Source: Cupriavidus pauculus
GTDB lineage: Bacteria; Pseudomonadota; Gammaproteobacteria; Burkholderiales; Burkholderiaceae
Length of the DNA stretch: 64,000 bases
Reading direction: 5' to 3'
NCBI RefSeq assembly: GCF_022179805.1
Contig: NZ_BPUO01000001.1
Location: 1 to 64,000, forward strand
The notes under the pieces were generated by a model that saw only the letters and a list, made by a program, of their open reading frames with translations, was not told the origin of the DNA and ran no database searches. The translations under genes and the position numbers were made by a program. Every line of letters begins with the position of its first letter. The stretch's first letter is position 1. This document shows positions 3,774 through 51,869 of the stretch, piece by piece.

Positions 3774-4748
3774 ATGTACAAAGCAATCGCAGCGTTGCGT
3801 GGCCTTGCCGTGGCCACCGCACTGGCCGCCACTTCCCTCAACGCGATGGCCGACTATCCGGACCGCCCCTTGCGCATCATCGTGCCATTCGCGGCCGGCG
3901 GCGCCACCGACGTCATCGCGCGCACCGTGGCGCAAGCGATGTCGGCCCGCCTCGGGCAATCGGTCGTGGTGGAGAACAAAGCCGGCGCCAACGGCAATAT
4001 CGGCGCCGTGGCCGCCGCCCGCTCGGACGCCGACGGCTACACGCTGCTGATGGCAACGTCGAGCCACGCCATCAACGCAACGCTGTACCAGAAGCTCAAC
4101 TACAGCCTTACCCGCGACTTTGTCGCGCTGTCGAACCTGGCATCCGTGCCGCTGCTGCTGGTGGTGAATCCGTCAATACCGGCCAGCTCGGCCAGCGAAC
4201 TCGCCACGTACGCCAAGGCCAATGCCGGCCGCGTCAACTACGGATCAGGCGGCACCGGCACCGCATCGCACCTGGCCGGCGAGCAGTTCAGCACGCTGAC
4301 CGGCGCCAAGATGACCCATGTGGCCTACAAGGGTGGCTCGCAGGCACTGAACGACCTGATGGGCGGCCAGGTTCAGGTGATGTTCGCCAACCTGCCCGAA
4401 GTACTGAGCCAGGTGCAAGGCGGCAAGCTCAAGGCACTGGCAGTGACCGGCAACAAGCGCCATGCCGCGCTGCCCGACGTACCCGCATTCTCCGAAACGC
4501 CCTTCCCGGCCATGACCGCACGCTCCTGGTTCGGCCTGTTCGCCCCGACCGGCACACCCCCGGCCGTGGTGGAGAAGCTGTCGCAGGCCATCGTCCAGAG
4601 CGTTGCCGACCCGGCCGTCAAAGACCGCCTGAAAGGCCTGGGCGCGGATCCCGTCGGCGACAGCCAGCCCGCATTCCAGAAATACGTGAATCAGGAAGTG
4701 TCGCGCTGGGCCGTGCTTGTGAAGCAATCCGGCGCCACCGTCGACTGA
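3774..4748 (+). CDS. Bug/TctC-family periplasmic solute-binding protein
   Basis: A 324-residue tripartite-tricarboxylate-type binding protein. The signal peptide (residues 1-23, cut near NAMA-DYPDRP) is followed by the family signature PLRIIVPFAAGGATDVIAR and the ligand-loop motif GNIGAVAAARSDADGYTL. AGGAGAC precedes the ATG at 3774, an internal start compared with the longest open frame. These proteins bind carboxylates or aromatic acids in the periplasm. No TctA/TctB membrane genes lie alongside, which is normal for the many orphan Bug proteins of Cupriavidus and Bordetella. The ligand is unknown. Confidence 0.92.
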   Translation: MYKAIAALRGLAVATALAATSLNAMADYPDRPLRIIVPFAAGGATDVIARTVAQAMSARLGQSVVVENKAGANGNIGAVAAARSDADGYTLLMATSSHAINATLYQKLNYSLTRDFVALSNLASVPLLLVVNPSIPASSASELATYAKANAGRVNYGSGGTGTASHLAGEQFSTLTGAKMTHVAYKGGSQALNDLMGGQVQVMFANLPEVLSQVQGGKLKALAVTGNKRHAALPDVPAFSETPFPAMTARSWFGLFAPTGTPPAVVEKLSQAIVQSVADPAVKDRLKGLGADPVGDSQPAFQKYVNQEVSRWAVLVKQSGATVD

Positions 4749-4780
4749 CACCACTCATCCGCCATCTTCAAGGAAATACC

Positions 4781-5098
4781 ATGCTGTACGACGTTCGCAC
4801 CTACACCTGCCAGCCCGGCACGATCAAGAAACACCTGGCGCTCTACGCCGAGCACGGCTACCCGGTGCAAAGCCGCCATCTGGGCAAACCGCTGGCCTAC
4901 ATGCAAACCGAGACCGGCAACGTCAACAGCTACATGCACATCTGGGTCTACGACAGCGCCGCCGACCGCGAGGCCAAGCGCCAGGCGCTGCAGAAAGACC
5001 CGGCCTGGGCCACCTATTTGAAGATGAGCGCCGAGGCCGCCTATCTGATCAGCCAGGAGAATCGGCTGATGACGCCGGTGGGGTTTTTTGAGGGGTGA
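4781..5098 (+). CDS. NIPSNAP-family protein
   Basis: A 105-residue protein beginning MLYDVRTYTCQPGT with HIWVYDSAADRE in the middle: a single NIPSNAP ferredoxin-like domain of usual length. The start at 4781 follows AAGGA and lies 32 bp after the Bug gene, so the two probably form an operon. NIPSNAP proteins often accompany catabolic genes in beta-proteobacteria; their chemistry is unclear. The C-terminal 50 bp overlap a convergent hypothetical gene. Confidence 0.88.
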   Translation: MLYDVRTYTCQPGTIKKHLALYAEHGYPVQSRHLGKPLAYMQTETGNVNSYMHIWVYDSAADREAKRQALQKDPAWATYLKMSAEAAYLISQENRLMTPVGFFEG

Positions 5099-5753: not shown

Positions 5754-5777
5754 TGGTGCGAGGGAGGGGACTCGAAC
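5754..5777 (-). repeat. attL: 24-bp copy of the tRNA-Leu 3' end
   Basis: The 24 bp starting TGGTGCGAGGGAGGGG and ending CTCGAAC are identical to 51783-51806 within the intact tRNA-Leu. Bases flanking the repeat differ on both sides (A versus T, T versus C). Because the tRNA lies on the minus strand, this is the stranded chromosomal 3' end left behind when the phage integrated. Confidence 0.95.
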
Positions 5778-42813: not shown

Positions 42814-42935
42814 AGCTTCTCCGCGCCATCGCCTTCTGGGTCGGTACCGCCATCGGCGTAATTGCCCTCTCCGGCCTCTATGCCGCTTTCAATCCGGAAG
42901 CGCCCACCGCCACCCGTATCTGGAGGCAGTCATGA
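42810..42935 (+). CDS. 41-residue membrane microprotein
   Basis: A GTG at 42810 overlaps the upstream stop (GTGA), and its own stop overlaps the next ATG. One membrane span, AIAFWVGTAIGVIALSGLYA. Confidence 0.62.
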   Translation: MKLLRAIAFWVGTAIGVIALSGLYAAFNPEAPTATRIWRQS

Positions 42936-43045
42936 ACACCGAGATCTTCATGCACGACCACGTGCGCGAGATGCGCGCCAAGGGCTGGAAGCTGAGCGGC
43001 CGCCTGCTGCCGAACGGCGACCTCGAATACGTCCGCCTCCACTGA
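42932..43045 (+). CDS. 37-residue phage microprotein
   Basis: Starts at 42932 behind GGAGG. HDHVREMRAKGWKLSGRLLP ends in a short strand. Function unknown. Confidence 0.6.
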   Translation: MNTEIFMHDHVREMRAKGWKLSGRLLPNGDLEYVRLH

Positions 43046-43053
43046 GATCTGCC

Positions 43054-44193
43054 ATGGCTAAGACCAAGACCAAAGCAACGAACACCGAGTCGCTGATGCT
43101 CACCATAACGAGAAAGCACCTGAGCGATGCCTTCAAGGCCGCCAGCCAGGCTGCACCGTCCAAATCGCCGCTGCACATTCTGACCCACATCAGGCTGCAG
43201 GCCACGGAGGACGTCCAGGCAGTGACCCTCACGGGATCAAACACCCACATGACCGTCCAAGCGACGGTTCCTGCTGAAATCTTCGGGGACTGCATCGACA
43301 TTTGCCTGCCCGCCGACAAGCTTTCCGCCCTGGTCGGGATGACCGCAGAGGATGTGAGTTTCACGGCGAAGGACGCGAAGGTGATTGCGCGCGCTGGCTC
43401 GTGCCGCTTGACCATTCCGTCCCTGCCTGGGCGGGACTTTCCTGAAGCGAGGATCGAAGGCGAGCCCATTGCCGTGCTCGACGCGCCGGGCCTCACGGAG
43501 ATGATCCCGACGGTGTCGTTCGCCGTGGCCGGGATGTTCCGCCATGACAAGCCCATCCTGCGAAACCTATGGATCGAGTGCGACGGCGAGGCGGTACACA
43601 TGGTCGGCTGCGACAGCTTCATGCTGGCCGCGAATTCATTGCTGGTAGCGCCGGCAGAGTTCGGCGAGACCATCGCGCCGTTCGGCGTTTGCCTTGCGGC
43701 CGATGGTGCGGATCTGCTCTCGAAGGTTGGCGCGACCCGGTTTGAGATCTATGAGAAGCACATTGTTGGGAGCCGTGACGGGATCCGCATCGAGTGCGGA
43801 CACCAGGGCGCCAAGTACTTCGATTGGCGCCGGATGATCCCCAAGGCTGACCAGTTCGTGACGTTCTCGCGCGACGAGCTGCTGCAGATCTGCCCGCTGC
43901 ATCGCGTCTTCGATCAGAAGGGCGTGATCCGCTTCGAGCAAGACGGCGCTGACTGCGCAATCACGATCACCGACGGCATGCAGGCCGTCGACGCCGAAAT
44001 TCCGGTCAAGGCGCGTAGCGAAGAAGCGCACCTAGACAACTCATTCGACGGCCCGAATCTCCTGCGCCTGCTCGGCCAGGTGAAGACCGACGACGTCGCG
44101 CTTTCATGGGCCAGCCAGGGGAAGCAGGACTTCTCCGTCTACCTCCTTCAGGACGGTAGCTGGCGCGGCATTCTCACCTCCCTTCGCGTGTAA
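43054..44193 (+). CDS. Phage-encoded DNA polymerase III beta (sliding clamp)-like protein
   Basis: 379 residues. LMLTITRKHLSDAFKAASQA, ICLPADKLSALVGM, ARAGSCRLTIPSLPGRDFPE and a three-domain beta/alpha repeat reflect the DnaN fold, with length typical of DnaN (about 370). The clamp rings DNA and tethers polymerase. A phage copy could redirect the host replisome or swap partner binding. The C-terminus (GSWRGILTSLRV) differs from the usual MPMRL ending of DnaN, so partner choice may differ. Confidence 0.8.
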   Translation: MAKTKTKATNTESLMLTITRKHLSDAFKAASQAAPSKSPLHILTHIRLQATEDVQAVTLTGSNTHMTVQATVPAEIFGDCIDICLPADKLSALVGMTAEDVSFTAKDAKVIARAGSCRLTIPSLPGRDFPEARIEGEPIAVLDAPGLTEMIPTVSFAVAGMFRHDKPILRNLWIECDGEAVHMVGCDSFMLAANSLLVAPAEFGETIAPFGVCLAADGADLLSKVGATRFEIYEKHIVGSRDGIRIECGHQGAKYFDWRRMIPKADQFVTFSRDELLQICPLHRVFDQKGVIRFEQDGADCAITITDGMQAVDAEIPVKARSEEAHLDNSFDGPNLLRLLGQVKTDDVALSWASQGKQDFSVYLLQDGSWRGILTSLRV

Positions 44194-44206: not shown

Positions 44207-44521
44207 ATGACTATCGACGAACTCAAGCGGCAGGCAGCCAAGGCAGCAAGACGCGGCGACGTGGCCAAGATGGACGAGCTTGAACTTGCCTACATCAAGC
44301 TGGCCGTTCCGCTCACCGTGGCCGACTCCAGCTATGACGGCGACCGCGCAGTGATCCTCGCTTCGCCGATTCGCCTGTTCCGAGGTGCCGGGCCGAATGG
44401 TGAAACCCGCATCCAGTGGATGCGCTCCGACGGCATCTATGCGATGTCGGACATCAATGGCCACTTCATTGGCGAGCCCGACGACGCTCCAACGCTCTTC
44501 CCGCTCGAAATGGCGGCCTGA
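44207..44521 (+). CDS. Hypothetical phage protein
   Basis: 104 residues. MTIDELKRQAAKAARRGDVA, then LFRGAGPNGETRIQWMRSDG. It lies just before the DGR. Function unknown. Confidence 0.65.
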   Translation: MTIDELKRQAAKAARRGDVAKMDELELAYIKLAVPLTVADSSYDGDRAVILASPIRLFRGAGPNGETRIQWMRSDGIYAMSDINGHFIGEPDDAPTLFPLEMAA

Positions 44522-44643
44522 TCAACCGGGGAAAGCGGCATCGACAGCCCCAAGTCACTAAACACCGTGGGAAGCCTCCGAGACCCTCCCCGCCGCAAGT
44601 ACCCGACCCAACGCAGTACCCACGCAACTCAATAGGACTCCGC

Positions 44644-45003
44644 ATGCAACAACTGCAAATCCCGCCGCTGTCCGAGGGCGAAATCTATGTCGGTGCCATC
44701 GGCGACAAGAACGGTGACTTCCACCACGTGATCCTGCTGCCGGGCGACAACGGCGACGCCACGTGGCAAGCCCAGATGGAATGGGCCAAGTCGGTTGGCG
44801 GCGATCTTCCGAACCGCGTCGAGCAGGCCATGTTGTGGGCCAACTTCCGCGACCAGTTTCAGAAGGATTGGTACTGGAGCAACGAAGTCCACCACAACAA
44901 CGACGGCTGGGCCTGGTGTCAGAGCTTCGGCTACGGCACCCAGGACTACCGCCACCAGGGCAGCGAGCTTCGCGCTCGCGCCGTCCGCAGATTGCCCATT
45001 TAA
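44644..45003 (+). CDS. DGR variable protein 1 (DUF1566/C-type-lectin-like)
   Basis: 119 residues from the ATG at 44644 (AGGA upstream). It contains FHHVILLPGDNGDATW, LPNRVEQAMLWANFRDQF, KDWYWSNE, then the variable region DGWAWCQSFGYGTQDYRHQG and the fixed end ELRARAVRRLPI. The fold resembles the C-type-lectin-like targets of retroelements, where the variable residues sit on the ligand-binding face. It lacks a signal peptide. Binding partner unknown. Confidence 0.88.
   Translation: MQQLQIPPLSEGEIYVGAIGDKNGDFHHVILLPGDNGDATWQAQMEWAKSVGGDLPNRVEQAMLWANFRDQFQKDWYWSNEVHHNNDGWAWCQSFGYGTQDYRHQGSELRARAVRRLPI
44903..44993 (+). repeat. DGR variable repeat VR1
   Basis: 91 bp aligned without gaps to the TR at 46027-46117, with 13 mismatches. 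Every mismatch is A in the TR (changed to G, C or T here), hitting all nine AAC codons and the TAT codon. The last 29 bp, from GAGCTTCGCG to GCAGATT, are identical and probably contain the initiation site for homing. Confidence 0.95.
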
Positions 45004-45033
45004 CCCTTCATCCATTCCTCTGGAGCGCATCAC

Positions 45034-45495
45034 ATGATCACGCTTGAACAGATCGAGGCCGAACACTCGCGCGTAGCCGCAATGATCGAGGCCTTCCGCG
45101 AACAGCTGCTGCCCACGGAGTACACCGTCGCCGGCGTGAAGATCCCGCTCGCGCCAGGTGAACGCTACGCGGGCCTCGTCCTCGGCGATGAAGGACAGCC
45201 GGACTACCACCTAATCCTGCTGCCCGGCGAAGTCGAGAGCGCCACGTGGAAGGATGCCTGCATCTGGGCCGGTGACCGCGACGCTTCGCTCCCTACACGC
45301 CGCGAGCAATCCCTCCTGTTTTCCAACCTGAAGGGCGAGTTTGAGTCAGCCTGGTACTGGTCCGGTGAGGAGCACGAGGAAAACGACGGCTGGGCCTGGT
45401 TTCAGTACTTCGGCTACGGCCGCCAGTACGGCAACCCCCAGGACCTCGAGCTTCGCGCTCGCGCCGTCCGCAGATTCATTCCTTCAGTAATTTAA
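45034..45495 (+). CDS. DGR variable protein 2 (DUF1566/C-type-lectin-like)
   Basis: 153 residues behind GGAG. An extra N-terminal helix (MITLEQIEAEHSRVAAMIEA) precedes the domain shared with protein 1: YAGLVLGDEGQPDYHLILLP, LPTRREQSLLFSNL, SAWYWSGEEHE. Then come the variable region (DGWAWFQYFGYGRQYGNPQD) and ELRARAVRRFIPSVI. It lies 30 bp after protein 1, a tandem paralogue. Confidence 0.88.
   Translation: MITLEQIEAEHSRVAAMIEAFREQLLPTEYTVAGVKIPLAPGERYAGLVLGDEGQPDYHLILLPGEVESATWKDACIWAGDRDASLPTRREQSLLFSNLKGEFESAWYWSGEEHEENDGWAWFQYFGYGRQYGNPQDLELRARAVRRFIPSVI
45386..45476 (+). repeat. DGR variable repeat VR2
   Basis: 91 bp aligned without gaps to the TR, with 14 mismatches, all at TR adenines. 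One AAC codon (seventh) is unchanged and a CAC has become CCC. The pattern differs from VR1, so the two sites were diversified independently. Confidence 0.95.
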
Positions 45496-45509
45496 CCATT
45501 TGAACCACC

Positions 45510-45884
45510 GTGGCTCTGCACACCCAACTTCCGATCTACAAGGCGGCATACGGTCTCCTGGACGTTGTCACCGACTTGGTCAAGAACATGGCCCGCGATT
45601 TCAAGCGCAGCATCGGCGAAAAGATCAACGCCGAGTGCATTGAGATCATGGTGCTCGTGTTCCGGGCTAATGTCGCCGCCGACAAGTCGCCGCATCTGGT
45701 GGAACTGCTGGAGCGCCTGCAAGTGATCGAGCTGCTTCTGCGTCTCAGCATGGACAAGCGACTGATTTCCCGGACCGGCTACGCCAAGGCCATCGAGATC
45801 ACGACCGGGATTGGCAAGCAGGCAAACGGCTGGAAAAAGTTCGCAAATCGCCCGCTTCACGGAGGTCAAGGCCGCCATGACTGA
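45510..45884 (+). CDS. DGR accessory variability protein, Avd-like four-helix bundle
   Basis: 124 residues with a GTG start. HTQLPIYKAAYGLLDVVTDL, DFKRSIGEKINAECIEIMVL and LIELLLRLSMDKRLIS-like helices (here VIELLLRLSMDKRLI) match Avd/23S-IVP four-helix bundles. Avd forms a basic barrel that binds the reverse transcriptase and its RNA and is needed for template-primed cDNA. It lies directly before the TR and RT. Confidence 0.88.
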   Translation: MALHTQLPIYKAAYGLLDVVTDLVKNMARDFKRSIGEKINAECIEIMVLVFRANVAADKSPHLVELLERLQVIELLLRLSMDKRLISRTGYAKAIEITTGIGKQANGWKKFANRPLHGGQGRHD

Positions 45885-47235
45885 GCGATCTTTCAATCTG
45901 GTCATGCCGCTGGCTCACGAGGCCACCGACAGGCGCATCACGGATACCTCCGGTAGCTTCCGGGCAGCGTCCGGCGCAGTTTCCCAGCTGAGCAATCGGA
46001 CGGGCGACGTGGATAGCATGATGGATACGGCTGGGCCTGGTATCAGAACTTCAACAACGGCAACCAGAACAACAACCACCAGAACAACGAGCTTCGCGCT
46101 CGCGCCGTCCGCAGATTGGAACGAAAGCGCCCCCTTCTCGTTTTACGAACTGCTCGAAGCCTATATCGACTGCCGCCGCACAAAGCGCAACAGCGCGAGC
46201 GCGCTGGCGTTCGAGGTCAACCTGGAGCAAAACCTGCGATGTCTGTACGACGAGCTGGCCGAAGGTATCTACACACCGGGACGGTCGAAGTGCTTCGTCA
46301 TCACGCGACCAAAGCCCCGTGAAGTGTGGGCGGCAGAGTTCCGCGATCGCATCGTGCACCACCTTCTGTACCGGAAGATCGGCCCTCGTTTCGAGAGCTC
46401 CTTTATCGCCGACTCTTGCGCCTGCATCAAGGGACGGGGCACCCTGTACGCCGCTCGCCGCCTGGAAGCGAAGGTGCGAAGCATCACCCAGAACTGGTCG
46501 CGGCCTGCGTTCTACCTGAAGTGCGATCTAGCCAACTTCTTCGTAAGCATCGACAAGAGCATCCTGCTGCAGCTGCTGCGCGTGAAGATCACTGAGCCGT
46601 TCTGGCAATGGCTAGCCGAGCTTGTGCTGATGCACGACCCACGGGCTGATTTCGTCTACCTCGGCGATCGCTCGATGATGGAACTCGTGCCGCCGCACAA
46701 GCGGCTCATGGAGCAGCCGGCACACCTGGGACTGCCAATCGGCAACCTCAGCAGCCAGTTCTTCGCGAATGTGTACCTCAACGAGCTGGATCAGTTCGTG
46801 AAGCACCAGATCGGCGCGCGGCATTACATCCGCTATGTCGATGACTTTCTGATCCTGCACCAGTCGCCACAGTGGCTGAATGCCGCACTGTCGCGCATCG
46901 ATGACTTCCTGCCGCGCGAGCTGCACGCACGTCTGAACCCAACGAAAACGATCCTGCAAACGGCCGCACGCGGCATCGACTTTGTTGGGCAGGTAGTACG
47001 GCCATGGGCACGTCATACCCGCGCCCGCTCGGTGAATGTCGCGGCGCAACGCCTGGCGCAGATGCCAGACGCCGATGTCTTCGATGCGGCCAACAGCTAC
47101 TTGGGACTCACCCGCCAGGCTACGGCCAGCCACGTAGACCGCGCTTGCCTCGCAAAGGTGATCCGGGGCCGGGGCCACGCCGTGGATTTCGCCCTCACCA
47201 AAGCCTATCGCAAGGCGGACCGGAGGCAGGCATGA
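45877..47235 (+). CDS. DGR reverse transcriptase
   Basis: The RT domain starts near nt 46135 (SFYELLEAYIDCRR). It has IGNLSSQ (about 288-294), the DGR-specific form of motif 4, and the catalytic YVDD (320-323). The thumb contains LNPTKTILQ and GIDFVGQVV. DGR RTs copy the TR RNA with errors at adenines. The ATG at 45877 with GGAGGT upstream overlaps the Avd stop and stays in frame through the TR, giving 452 residues; ATGs at 46018 and 46021 are alternatives. No ATG lies between the TR and the RT domain. Confidence 0.92.
   Translation: MTERSFNLVMPLAHEATDRRITDTSGSFRAASGAVSQLSNRTGDVDSMMDTAGPGIRTSTTATRTTTTRTTSFALAPSADWNESAPFSFYELLEAYIDCRRTKRNSASALAFEVNLEQNLRCLYDELAEGIYTPGRSKCFVITRPKPREVWAAEFRDRIVHHLLYRKIGPRFESSFIADSCACIKGRGTLYAARRLEAKVRSITQNWSRPAFYLKCDLANFFVSIDKSILLQLLRVKITEPFWQWLAELVLMHDPRADFVYLGDRSMMELVPPHKRLMEQPAHLGLPIGNLSSQFFANVYLNELDQFVKHQIGARHYIRYVDDFLILHQSPQWLNAALSRIDDFLPRELHARLNPTKTILQTAARGIDFVGQVVRPWARHTRARSVNVAAQRLAQMPDADVFDAANSYLGLTRQATASHVDRACLAKVIRGRGHAVDFALTKAYRKADRRQA
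46027..46117 (+). repeat. DGR template repeat (TR)
   Basis: 91 bp between Avd and the RT domain. Read in the frame of the targets it codes Y-Q-N-F-N-N-G-N-Q-N-N-N-H-Q-N-N: nine AAC codons, which can mutate to many amino acids but never to stop. It is the invariant donor for VR1 and VR2. The next base upstream (T46026 against G in both VRs) marks the left end of homology. The transcript around it probably forms the structured DGR RNA. Confidence 0.95.
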
Positions 47236-47534
47236 CCCGGCTTGCGTTCGCAATCGCCCTGCTCGCTGCGCTCATAGCCGCCATGGCTTGGGGCACCCAC
47301 CAAACCCTCCGTTGGATGCAACGGATTGCAGAAGGAGATCTCCCGATGGGAATCGTCAGCACCGCGACGATGATCGATCGCCTCACCAGGCGGATCGACA
47401 CGCGCGACCTCCGTATGGACGAAGCCAGCTTTGTCCGAAGCCTCAAGGAAAAGGTCCAGCGTTCCAGCATTGTCGACCTGACCGCCGACGAAGTGGAGAA
47501 GCTCGACGAGATCCACGGGAGACTGTTCCAATGA
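47232..47534 (+). CDS. Membrane-anchored phage protein
   Basis: 100 residues starting in the RT stop (ATGA). One N-terminal membrane span (LAFAIALLAALIAAMAWGTH) and a helical charged domain. Not a known DGR part; it may be an ordinary early gene. Confidence 0.65.
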   Translation: MTRLAFAIALLAALIAAMAWGTHQTLRWMQRIAEGDLPMGIVSTATMIDRLTRRIDTRDLRMDEASFVRSLKEKVQRSSIVDLTADEVEKLDEIHGRLFQ

Positions 47535-50308: not shown

Positions 50309-50611
50309 ATGAGCGAACAAGAACTACTCGACCGCATCATCGAGGAACTGGACAAGAGAATCCGCCCGATGGCCCACATCCCGCTTGAGGCGCAGCTTTG
50401 GTCAACGAAAGAGATCGGCGAATACCTGCAGCGGCCCGCCAAGGTGGTGCGCGAACGCGTGGTGAACGTGCCCGGTTTCCCGGCACCGATCCGTCTTCCA
50501 AACCCGGGCAGCCTCGGCAAGGCTCAGCCGCGCTGGAAGGCGATCGAGGTCATCAAGTGGGTGGAGTCGTACCAGGGCGGCAAGATGGGCCGCCCTCGCA
50601 AGCCGGACTAG
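50309..50611 (+). CDS. Excisionase-like HTH protein
   Basis: 100 residues. LWSTKEIGEYLQRPAKVVRE is an AlpA/MerR-type winged HTH and WKAIEVIKWVESYQ follows. It is last in the right early operon and converges on the integrase with a 4-bp overlap, the usual place for Xis. It would bend attachment DNA to favour excision. Confidence 0.78.
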   Translation: MSEQELLDRIIEELDKRIRPMAHIPLEAQLWSTKEIGEYLQRPAKVVRERVVNVPGFPAPIRLPNPGSLGKAQPRWKAIEVIKWVESYQGGKMGRPRKPD

Positions 50612-51630
50612 CCCAGCCGCAGCGCCAGTTCGGCGGCGGACTCGTTGTAGTAGGTCCGCAGCTCGCTGAGGTTGGTGTGCCCGGTCATCCGGGCCAGCGC
50701 GAGCACGTCGAGCTTCGTCGAGAGCCTGGTGATGGCTTCGTGGCGGGTATCGTGGAACGTCAGGTCGGCAATGCCGGCCTTTTCCTTTGCCTTCCGGAAC
50801 AGGGCATCCCGGCTGGCGGCTGGCAGCGCAAACAGCGGCTTGCCGTCGTCCACTTCCGGCAGCATCTTCAGCAGTTCGATGGCGCGCGTGGAGAGTGGCA
50901 CGTCCCGGGCACCGCCATTCTTGGTCATCGGAAGATGGGCGACGCGCCGCTCCAAGTCGACCGTGTGGGAGGTCAGGCCCAGTAGCTCGCCAGAGCGCAT
51001 TGCAGTTTCGATGGCCAACAGGAACGCCACGGCCACTCGCTGGGACGACAAAGCGACGGGGTGACCCTCGTAGTAGCCCAGGGCCAGGGTTATATCCTCG
51101 ATCTCCTTGTCGGAGATGCGCCGGTCGCGCGGCGGCGAGTCGGGCGGCCGCCGGACGTTCTTCATGGGGTTGTGTGTCAGCCAGCCCCACTCCTCATGCG
51201 CCACCTTGAAGGCGTGAGAAATCAGGGACATTTCGCGCGACACCGACGCGCCGGCGATACCCGGCTGCTCGTCCGTCCCGCGCTGCCTGACGTCGCGCCA
51301 AGCAGCAATGTGGGCGGGCTGGAGGTCCGCCAGCTTGATGTCTCCGAACTTCCGCCCCAAGACGGCAATGTCGCCAATGAGGTCCAGCCGGATGACCTCC
51401 CACCGCTCACCCTTCTTGGCCGGGCTCACCTTCTCGGCGTAGGTCTTCAGAACGTCGCGCACGGTGTGGGTCTTGCTCCCCGTCCCGCCGCTGATCGAAC
51501 GCAGTTCAGTCTCGCGCTGAGACGCCCAAGCTTGGGCCTCCGCCTTGGTATCGAGGTTCTTCGAGTCGCGCGTGCCCTGGACATAGACCTCGGCGCGCCA
51601 GCCATTCTTGACCTTCCGAAAGGAAGCCAT
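50608..51630 (-). CDS. int: Tyrosine-recombinase integrase
   Basis: 340 residues. An arm-binding N-terminal domain (MASFRKVKNGWRAEVYVQGT), a core-binding domain (about 55-165), then the catalytic domain with Arg212 (MRSGELLGL), His293-x-x-Arg296 (HDTRH), His318 (GHTN) and Tyr327 or 328. It joins attP to the tRNA-Leu 3' end. Its start abuts the four phased arm-type sites, so integrase may control its own expression. Confidence 0.95.
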   Translation of the reverse strand: MASFRKVKNGWRAEVYVQGTRDSKNLDTKAEAQAWASQRETELRSISGGTGSKTHTVRDVLKTYAEKVSPAKKGERWEVIRLDLIGDIAVLGRKFGDIKLADLQPAHIAAWRDVRQRGTDEQPGIAGASVSREMSLISHAFKVAHEEWGWLTHNPMKNVRRPPDSPPRDRRISDKEIEDITLALGYYEGHPVALSSQRVAVAFLLAIETAMRSGELLGLTSHTVDLERRVAHLPMTKNGGARDVPLSTRAIELLKMLPEVDDGKPLFALPAASRDALFRKAKEKAGIADLTFHDTRHEAITRLSTKLDVLALARMTGHTNLSELRTYYNESAAELALRLG

Positions 51631-51782: not shown

Positions 51783-51806
51783 TGGTGCGAGGGAGGGGAC
51801 TCGAAC
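51783..51806 (-). repeat. attR: 24-bp core within the intact tRNA-Leu
   Basis: Identical to 5754-5777. It spans the CCA end, the acceptor strand and part of the T-arm. Confidence 0.95.
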
Positions 51807-51869
51807 CCCTACACCATTGCTGGCGTCAGGACCTAAACCTGGTGCGTCTACCAATTTCGCCACCCTCGC
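51783..51869 (-). tRNA. tRNA-Leu (anticodon UAG)
   Basis: An 87-nt cloverleaf including encoded CCA. Acceptor GCGAGGG/CCCTCGC, D-arm with GGTAGACGC, anticodon loop TTTAGGT (UAG), a long variable arm as expected for Leu, and T-arm GGTTCGAGTCC. The 3' 24 nt now come from the phage and keep the gene whole. Confidence 0.96.

Follow-up and report, generated by a model that had tools for sequence, protein, structure and literature searches.

A diversity-generating retroelement in a Cupriavidus pauculus prophage with probable 5′-side priming of its template RNA, through predicted pairing of an upstream structured RNA with the 3′ edge of the template

In diversity-generating retroelements (DGRs) the choice of the cDNA start is described mainly from the element of the Bordetella phage BPP-1, in which a spacer RNA lies behind the template repeat (TR) (PMC12875486). 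Here we analyse a DGR located at positions 44644-47235 of a stretch of 64,000 nucleotides (positions 1 to 64,000 of contig NZ_BPUO01000001.1 of Cupriavidus pauculus; this whole stretch is called the window hereafter). The element proves to be a genuine DGR of a familiar kind, while the layout of its RNA appears to be new as far as the literature searches and the Rfam model show. We propose, with a probability of roughly two in three, that the template RNA of this DGR primes from the 5′ side, with pairing between the structured RNA RT-15, which lies in front of the TR, and the 3′ edge of the TR fixing the cDNA start. The proposal follows from the predicted pairing of RT-15, from its place upstream, with that edge.

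The window DGR is like that of BPP-1 in having the order Avd, TR and reverse transcriptase (RT) and in having differences between the TR and the variable repeats (VRs) at adenines only (17/17 in BPP-1), and the structure nearest by sequence to the window RT is 8ub7, the BPP-1 RT as we take it. The BPP-1 target Mtd is lectin-like, as the targets here are predicted to be. By contrast, in BPP-1 the DGR RNA (RF03022, Phage_DGR) is 3′ of the TR (RNA 4822-4954, TR 4684-4817), with a 144-nt spacer before brt, whereas in the window the RNA is 5′ of the TR and there is no such spacer. In the window we found neither the 3′ structured RNA spacer of BPP-1 type, nor the non-adenine mismatches within the repeat that characterise the BPP-1-type IMH/IMH* (initiation of mutagenic homing) sequences, nor the post-VR hairpin, for which the stems are only 4 and 3 bp; across the VRs of the family a stem of at least 6 bp is present in 19/230 versus 7/230 after shuffling, a small excess.

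The DGR of Burkholderia phage Magia has the same locus type, with an RT 70% identical to that of the window and RT-15 abutting the TR; its depositors note lectin-fold DGR targets with IMH-like regions, and a third VR of Magia, in CPT_Magia_057 (a possible target according to its annotation), lies about 7 kb upstream, as compared with only two VRs in the window. In Vibrio phage VP58.5 and Pseudoalteromonas phage ACA1 the annotated RT gene likewise runs through the TR, so that a TR within the RT gene is by itself not unique to the type of the window; unlike the window, however, they have a TR that is separated from the RT core by 174 nt and begins within about 10 nt after Avd. The repeats and RNA parts of the window DGR are as follows.

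44903-44994, plus strand: VR1, with 13 mismatches to the TR, all at TR adenines; identity extends to 44994
45386-45476, plus strand: VR2, with 14 mismatches to the TR, all at TR adenines
45846-46028, plus strand: RT-15 structured RNA (RF03018), 154.7 bits against a cut-off of 82, overlapping the Avd stop and abutting the TR
45891-45900, plus strand: predicted helix 5′ strand, UUUCAAUCUG, unpaired in the Rfam model, from covariation
46027-46117, plus strand: TR with 27 adenines, inside the RT reading frame
46112-46121, plus strand: predicted helix 3′ strand, CAGAUUGGAA, at the 3′ edge of the TR, from covariation

In a gapless alignment over 91 nt (TR 46027-46117 with VR1 44903-44993 and VR2 45386-45476), direct re-alignment gives 13/13 and 14/14 differences at TR adenines, identical to the counts of a first-pass annotation of this DNA, and no non-adenine difference between the TR and either VR up to 46117. 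The probability that all 27 differences hit adenines by chance is about 2e-17. The two VRs differ from each other at 14 positions, every one a TR adenine, and at 9 of the 11 diversified codons, which agrees with the annotation's statement that they differ at most of these codons. Its claim that both VRs were rewritten from one TR is likewise borne out by the adenine-only signature of the same TR in VR1 and VR2, and one template likely has rewritten two predicted lectin-like genes. In the host genome a pattern search with the adenines free and up to 3 other mismatches recovered the same three copies only, with no fourth, and a TR pattern search together with an Avd search detected no second element in the 6.8-Mb host assembly.

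The RT-15 match spans the full Rfam model (positions 1-192) and, located 5′ of the TR, is the only Rfam match at gathering score in 44500-47500. RT-15 reportedly comes from the 2017 study of candidate structured RNAs by Weinberg. The Rfam match describes it by name only, and the model ends at the TR, leaves the helix strand unpaired and does not include pairing with the TR 3′ edge. The record of Cruim01 annotates RT-15 beside its RT. In the literature searches no paper joining RT-15 with DGRs was recognised among those listed; Weinberg 2017, Wu 2018 and Handa 2018/2025 might describe an upstream DGR RNA. The last RT-15 base is 0-3 nt beyond the first TR base in all 14 loci with both located. 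RT-15 is present in 15 of the 18 scanned loci, and the three without it are short pieces, with a partial RT match in L059 and with a contig that starts 98 and 176 nt away from the RT match in L092 and L117. A search with RT-15 only through 399 genomes of the order gave 9 matches over the cut-off, the window included, all 9 with a TR/VR pair and a DGR RT motif; for 3 matches under the cut-off neither a TR/VR pair nor a DGR RT motif was found. The first-pass annotation was silent on the upstream RT-15 RNA, on the absence of a 3′ spacer and on the RNA clamp considered below.

The family was assembled from 146 sequences (145 loci and the window), 16 of which lack a TR/VR pair, several on contigs cut near the RT. 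Six loci with pairs (L011, L035, L047, L056, L109, L132) failed the RT motif pattern; with L057 and L058, which lack the core, removed and identical loci merged, 110 loci were obtained, with L051, L052 and L054 (other DGR types) taken out, 107, and at less than 95% identity 94 remain for covariation. The TR of L112 was picked by hand. The TR/VR scan, which also supplied the VRs for the counts of pairwise turnover and identity edge given below, permitted at most one non-adenine mismatch, so that its tally of 2824 to 29 is biased and is not evidence. The records OK094664.1 (a Shewanella phage) and OP650936.1 (a 'Hujiaoplasma' phage) have the equal length of 47,902 and 75.5% and 75.4% identity to the window, and look like one phage under two hosts. 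In two metagenome-assembled genomes, labelled Telmatospirillum (L052) and Acidobacteriia (L056), the TR/VR coordinates are identical; one of the labels is probably a binning error, or the phage is shared.

The helix predicted between RT-15 and the TR 3′ edge has 8-10 bp with a flawless 7-bp core (45894-45900/46112-46118) and is absent from the Rfam RT-15 model. In an unsupervised covariation scan over RT-15, the TR and the RT start in the 94 loci, the pair 45894-46118, whose sides are 224 nt apart, ranks first with z 32, the next having 26.5. These two positions are paired in 93/94 loci, as C-G, U-A, G-C, A-U or U-G. On the RT tree their sides change 17 and 15 times, 13 times on the same branch versus 2.4 expected (0/2000 permutations as high), and 12 of these 13 same-branch changes go from pair to pair. 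Other pair-to-pair changes are found at 45893 (1), 45895 (3) and 45896 (2), of which only 45896 is above chance (P 0.0045). When the helix partner is slid, pairing falls from 92.4% to 20-56%. A second alignment, of 32 of the 94 loci, gives 89.8% of cells paired versus 80.9% when shuffled (0/500 as high), with 23.5-44.9% when slid, and 26 doubly changed cells versus 7.0 in shuffles (0/500 as high). For 60 of the 94 RT-15 loci, drawn at random, the mean duplex energy of cognate strands is −9.7 versus −7.8 for swapped ones, with 0/5000 permutations as good.

A similar arrangement is seen in Bacteroides phage Bacuni_F1, which has Avd, a 128-nt leader, the TR, a 38-nt gap and then the RT, with a leader/TR-3′ helix predicted at the equivalent place; unlike the window, it has an RT only 33% identical, no Rfam match at gathering score and, in most relatives, another helix sequence. 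Its type comprises 43 loci, with L178 and L179 (distant) and L195 (cut) excluded, or 26 non-redundant ones, in which the strands, compared by eye, vary together (AUCUGU/ACAGAU, CCGUAA/UUACGG, CCC/GGG and others). The cognate strands of this clade have a mean duplex energy of −10.4 versus −7.6 when swapped, with 0/5000 permutations as good.

The place where the TR/VR identity ends also bears on the cDNA start. Pooled over 192 VRs of the 94 loci, the non-adenine TR/VR mismatch is at most about 5% over 46072-46112 (3/192 at 46112), and it then climbs to 12/189 at 46114, 42/183 at 46116, 75/186 at 46117, 78/138 at 46118 and 90/107 at 46119. The silent third positions 46109 and 46112 are each mismatched in 3/192 and 46115 in 50/192; with silent positions upstream of the edge thus matched, selection on the protein alone is insufficient to explain the edge. 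The edge of identity coincides with the last pair of the helix, whose upstream strand has the polarity that a primer needs.

Based on our model, the RT and Avd would bind the template RNA, in which RT-15 would take the place of the 3′ spacer of BPP-1. The clamp of the RT-15 strand on the TR 3′ edge would set the cDNA start near 46111, a position that is proposed because the edge is at the last helix pair and the upstream strand is oriented as a primer, and the cDNA would be primed probably from an internal ribose just past the helix, at about 45901-45904. The adenines would be miscopied into the cDNA, which would then replace VR1 and VR2 and so change, in two small lectin-like proteins, the face that is predicted to contact the ligand. 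For DGRs at large, we lean slightly towards there being two RNA architectures, with the primer RNA either after the template, as in BPP-1, or before it and reaching round to the far end, as here and in the Bacteroides clade, the template doubling as the start of the RT gene; RT-15 would then be primer and scaffold of the second architecture.

It is noted separately that in BPP-1 (L150, 4806-4812/4865-4871) a 7-bp match joins TR positions 123-129 with spacer positions 48-54, among several helices of like length and just before spacer position A56; UGGUC occurs at that place in both the BPP-1 spacer and RT-15. This match may be the 3′-side equivalent of the clamp, or chance.

Several results weigh against 5′-side priming by this helix. 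In the tree analysis the pairs formed by 45892, 45895 and 45893 are not above chance (P 0.11, 0.11 and 0.49), two of the five measures in the second alignment are not above shuffles (91 and 141 of 500), and the outer pairs fray, with 45895-46117 paired in 67/94 loci and 45891-46121 in 45/84. Single-sequence folding of the window RNA did not show the helix, its stability being no better than that of shuffles (z 0.74), and ensemble folding gives the core a probability above 0.5 in 43/94 loci. In the strand swaps about one in four of the exchanged partners (median 0.24) pairs equally well with a leader, many of these partners being alike, and the permutation leaves relatedness in. To some extent the low mismatch within the repeat is a product of the VR-finding scan, which the position of the edge is not. 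For 24 VRs of the Bacteroides clade the TR/VR edge, located at 4944/4945, precedes the helix by about 5 nt, and in this clade an unsupervised mutual-information scan with an effective N of 15.5 did not rank the helix high. Finally, the helix could regulate translation rather than priming.

Pairing by itself is no proof of priming, and the helix might only ring or protect the RNA, the cDNA start being set otherwise, e.g., by a nick in the target DNA, in keeping with the target-primed models for BPP-1 that are discussed in PMC3240598. This we consider unlikely, as the strand polarity fits priming and the identity boundary is at the helix in the pooled VRs.

It is also rather improbable that the element is an ordinary BPP-1-like DGR, with the essential RNA 3′ of the TR within the RT coding sequence and RT-15 merely protecting or processing the transcript. 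The characterised DGRs do have a 3′ RNA: among 12 control phages, Rfam matches at gathering score occur in BPP-1 (RF03022) and BalMu-1 (RT-14), both 3′ of the TR, the other 10 being without a match. However, the TR end and the RT core of the window are 53 nt apart, with a median of 52 nt (39-99) in 107 loci, as compared with 174-236 nt in five controls (VP58.5, ACA1, BalMu-1, Bise and ANMV-1); a further control, Bacuni_F1, has 80 nt, and in the other six of the 12 control phages the RT core was not located by the pattern. Moreover, RT-15 itself covaries with the TR 3′ edge, and, as a weak point, the fourfold sites of the first 40 RT codons are not extra conserved (0.447 versus 0.455 overall).

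Another proposal is that the RT-15/TR helix is a translational switch that hides or exposes the RT starts at about 46009-46023, the RT being made only when the RNA is not a template. The candidate RT starts in the window are ATG 45877, GTG 46009, ATG 46018 and ATG 46021, and no in-frame ATG, GTG or TTG is present between the TR and the RT core (~46171); because all candidate starts are upstream of it, the window TR is very likely read as part of the RT N-terminus. The same holds for the candidate starts in 25/107 loci, the window included, and in the closing stem of RT-15 the 3′ strand contains ATG 46018 of the window (pairs 45904-46019 and 45905-46018), both of which speak for a switch. Yet the start positions shift among relatives, lying only inside the TR in 3/107 loci, and the helix persists, while the helix end coincides with the TR/VR identity boundary, which a switch does not need. 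We thus hold a switch acting in place of priming to be improbable as well; a translational switch is compatible with 5′-side priming.

Over the 107 loci there is no in-frame ATG, GTG or TTG from the TR to the core in 69, a start after the TR is possible in 38 and an ATG after the TR is present in 5, so the RT start seems to be inside or upstream of the TR in most loci. In the RT frame the TR gives a threonine-rich stretch, the frame being different from that of the targets. In L022 (7876-7966), unlike the other RT-15-type relatives compared by eye, the TR frame in the RT is the same as that in the target gene, so that the first residues of this RT could be lectin-like. The idea that the upstream region is a plain N-terminal extension of the RT was considered and rejected: it is open in many relatives but has stops or frame changes in others, for example L018, L042, L074, L076, L126 and L145, and in L076, L126 and L145 RT-15 scores well, at 177.5-177.9 bits.

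Comparison of close relatives indicates that the DGR family diversifies in nature, because they share the TR and differ at VR adenine positions. The closest relative, L002, also of Cupriavidus pauculus and with an RT protein identity of 94%, has a TR identical to that of the window, while 13/27 adenine sites of VR2 and 12/27 of VR1 differ and 0/65 other sites do. L073, L074 and L076 have identical RT DNA over the compared stretch, and their VRs differ at 14-21 of 34-35 adenine sites and at 0-1 of 71 others; between L073 and L074 the upstream RNA region also differs in frame, with both VR sets diversified. In 96 pairs with RT DNA at least 85% identical, which share loci and are not independent, and one of which is without comparable VRs, 2489/4771 adenine sites differ versus 93/11446 others. 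Against this, L008/L097 and L096/L098 have identical RT and no VR change; each pair may be the same sampled sequence. The annotation had also claimed active, repeated evolution of two phage proteins: repeated rewriting is supported among the relatives by the pattern seen with L002, while this copy may be active. That the element is an inactive relic with old and fixed VRs is very improbable, as the RT, Avd, TR and both target genes are intact and near relatives differ almost solely at adenine sites.

The protein-coding parts of the locus are as follows.

44644-45003, plus strand: VP1, first target, 119 aa, with a predicted C-type-lectin-like fold (Lcl_C/DUF1566)
45034-45495, plus strand: VP2, second target, 153 aa, a relative of VP1 that carries an additional stretch at the N-terminus
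45510-45884, plus strand: Avd, with a GTG start, 124 aa, from family profiles
45811-47235, plus strand: RT reading frame, longest form
46171-47235, plus strand: RT core, counted from the CRRTKR motif; 8ub7 is the solved structure closest to it in sequence

The VRs are at the ends of the VP1 and VP2 genes. VP1 and VP2 score 23.5 and 21.2 bits with Lcl_C (DUF1566), under the Pfam cut-off of 34.9. The fold prediction, made for VP1, from 40 sequences, has a mean pLDDT (predicted local distance difference test) of 95.9 and gives a C-type-lectin-like fold, the closest solved structure being the C-terminal domain of Legionella Lcl (Foldseek TM 0.72, E 1.4e-3), followed mainly by C-type-lectin-like proteins; no PDB match of VP1 was found at E 0.001, and DUF1566 proteins of uncultured phages rank high when VP1 is compared with viral models. 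Avd matches PF22296 at 45.9 bits (cut-off 40) and phrog_3206, 'Avd protein of DGR', and reaches 47.8 with the NCBIfam Avd model, under its cut-off of 80; matches of its sequence in PDB are mainly to designed ankyrins and are regarded as chance. The RT matches phrog_1423, 'Reverse transcriptase', at E 1.6e-107 and, in PDB, 8ub7 best, at 122 bits, and has, as the annotation had reported, the DGR RT motif IGNLSSQ and YVDD, which are both in frame; it is assigned to the DGR clade by profile, PDB match and IGNLSSQ. The order previously given, with variable proteins, an Avd-like protein, the TR and a DGR-type RT, is thus confirmed by the VRs at the target ends, the PF22296 match and the RT motifs.

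In the DNA of the 110 loci, which include the window and the three DGRs of other types, the number of VRs is two in 74, three in 23 and one in 13. In 17 loci a VR is located 2.6-7.7 kb upstream, in 14 of them in small genes of 115-135 aa; of the other three, that of Magia is cut by the locus end, and for two the open-reading-frame caller chose the wrong frame. Such VR-bearing genes several kb upstream of the cassette indicate that one TR serves dispersed targets. Examples of these small lectin-like genes are L140 1-353, L006 98-475, L072 4047-4415 and L082 2143-2514.

The host element is a myovirus-type prophage of about 46 kb, as genes for the tail sheath, baseplate, tape measure, portal and terminase are located between the copies of a 24-bp direct repeat that bounds it, with phage matches for 8 of the 10 scanned proteins. 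Its landmarks are as follows.

5754-5777, no strand assigned: left copy of the 24-bp repeat, putative att site, from a repeat search
50608-51630, minus strand: tyrosine integrase of the prophage, from family profile matches
51783-51806, no strand assigned: 24-bp repeat, right copy, situated at an end of the tRNA-Leu gene (51783-51869)

The earlier claim that the prophage carries a complete DGR, with a single template for two targets, is upheld, the TR/VR pairs, Avd, RT and prophage genes all being present. Rather than lying beside the tail genes found, the DGR occupies a site in the early region some 3.4 kb from the integrase. Near it, on the upstream side, is a sliding-clamp-like gene, a homologue of DNA polymerase III beta (42922-44193, plus strand; PF00712 42.7 bits, phrog_947). 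The DGR is near an integrase also in Magia, QDWS and LPPA56, three of the six close phage relatives fetched; for the stretch shown, the annotations of Cruim01 and Haboob list no integrase, and SC_8 is unannotated there.

The more than 100 loci with the RNA in front are a natural topological swap with which to test what a DGR RNA must do, and RT-15 gains a likely job. Their layout is also a more compact one, with the RNA, the template and the enzyme gene overlapping. As both targets are small proteins that stand alone and are encoded in the early region, near the integrase, tail-fibre tropism switching is not to be assumed. The targeted diversification would thus act among early-region phage proteins and not tail fibres, which raises the question of what the ligands of these predicted lectins are.

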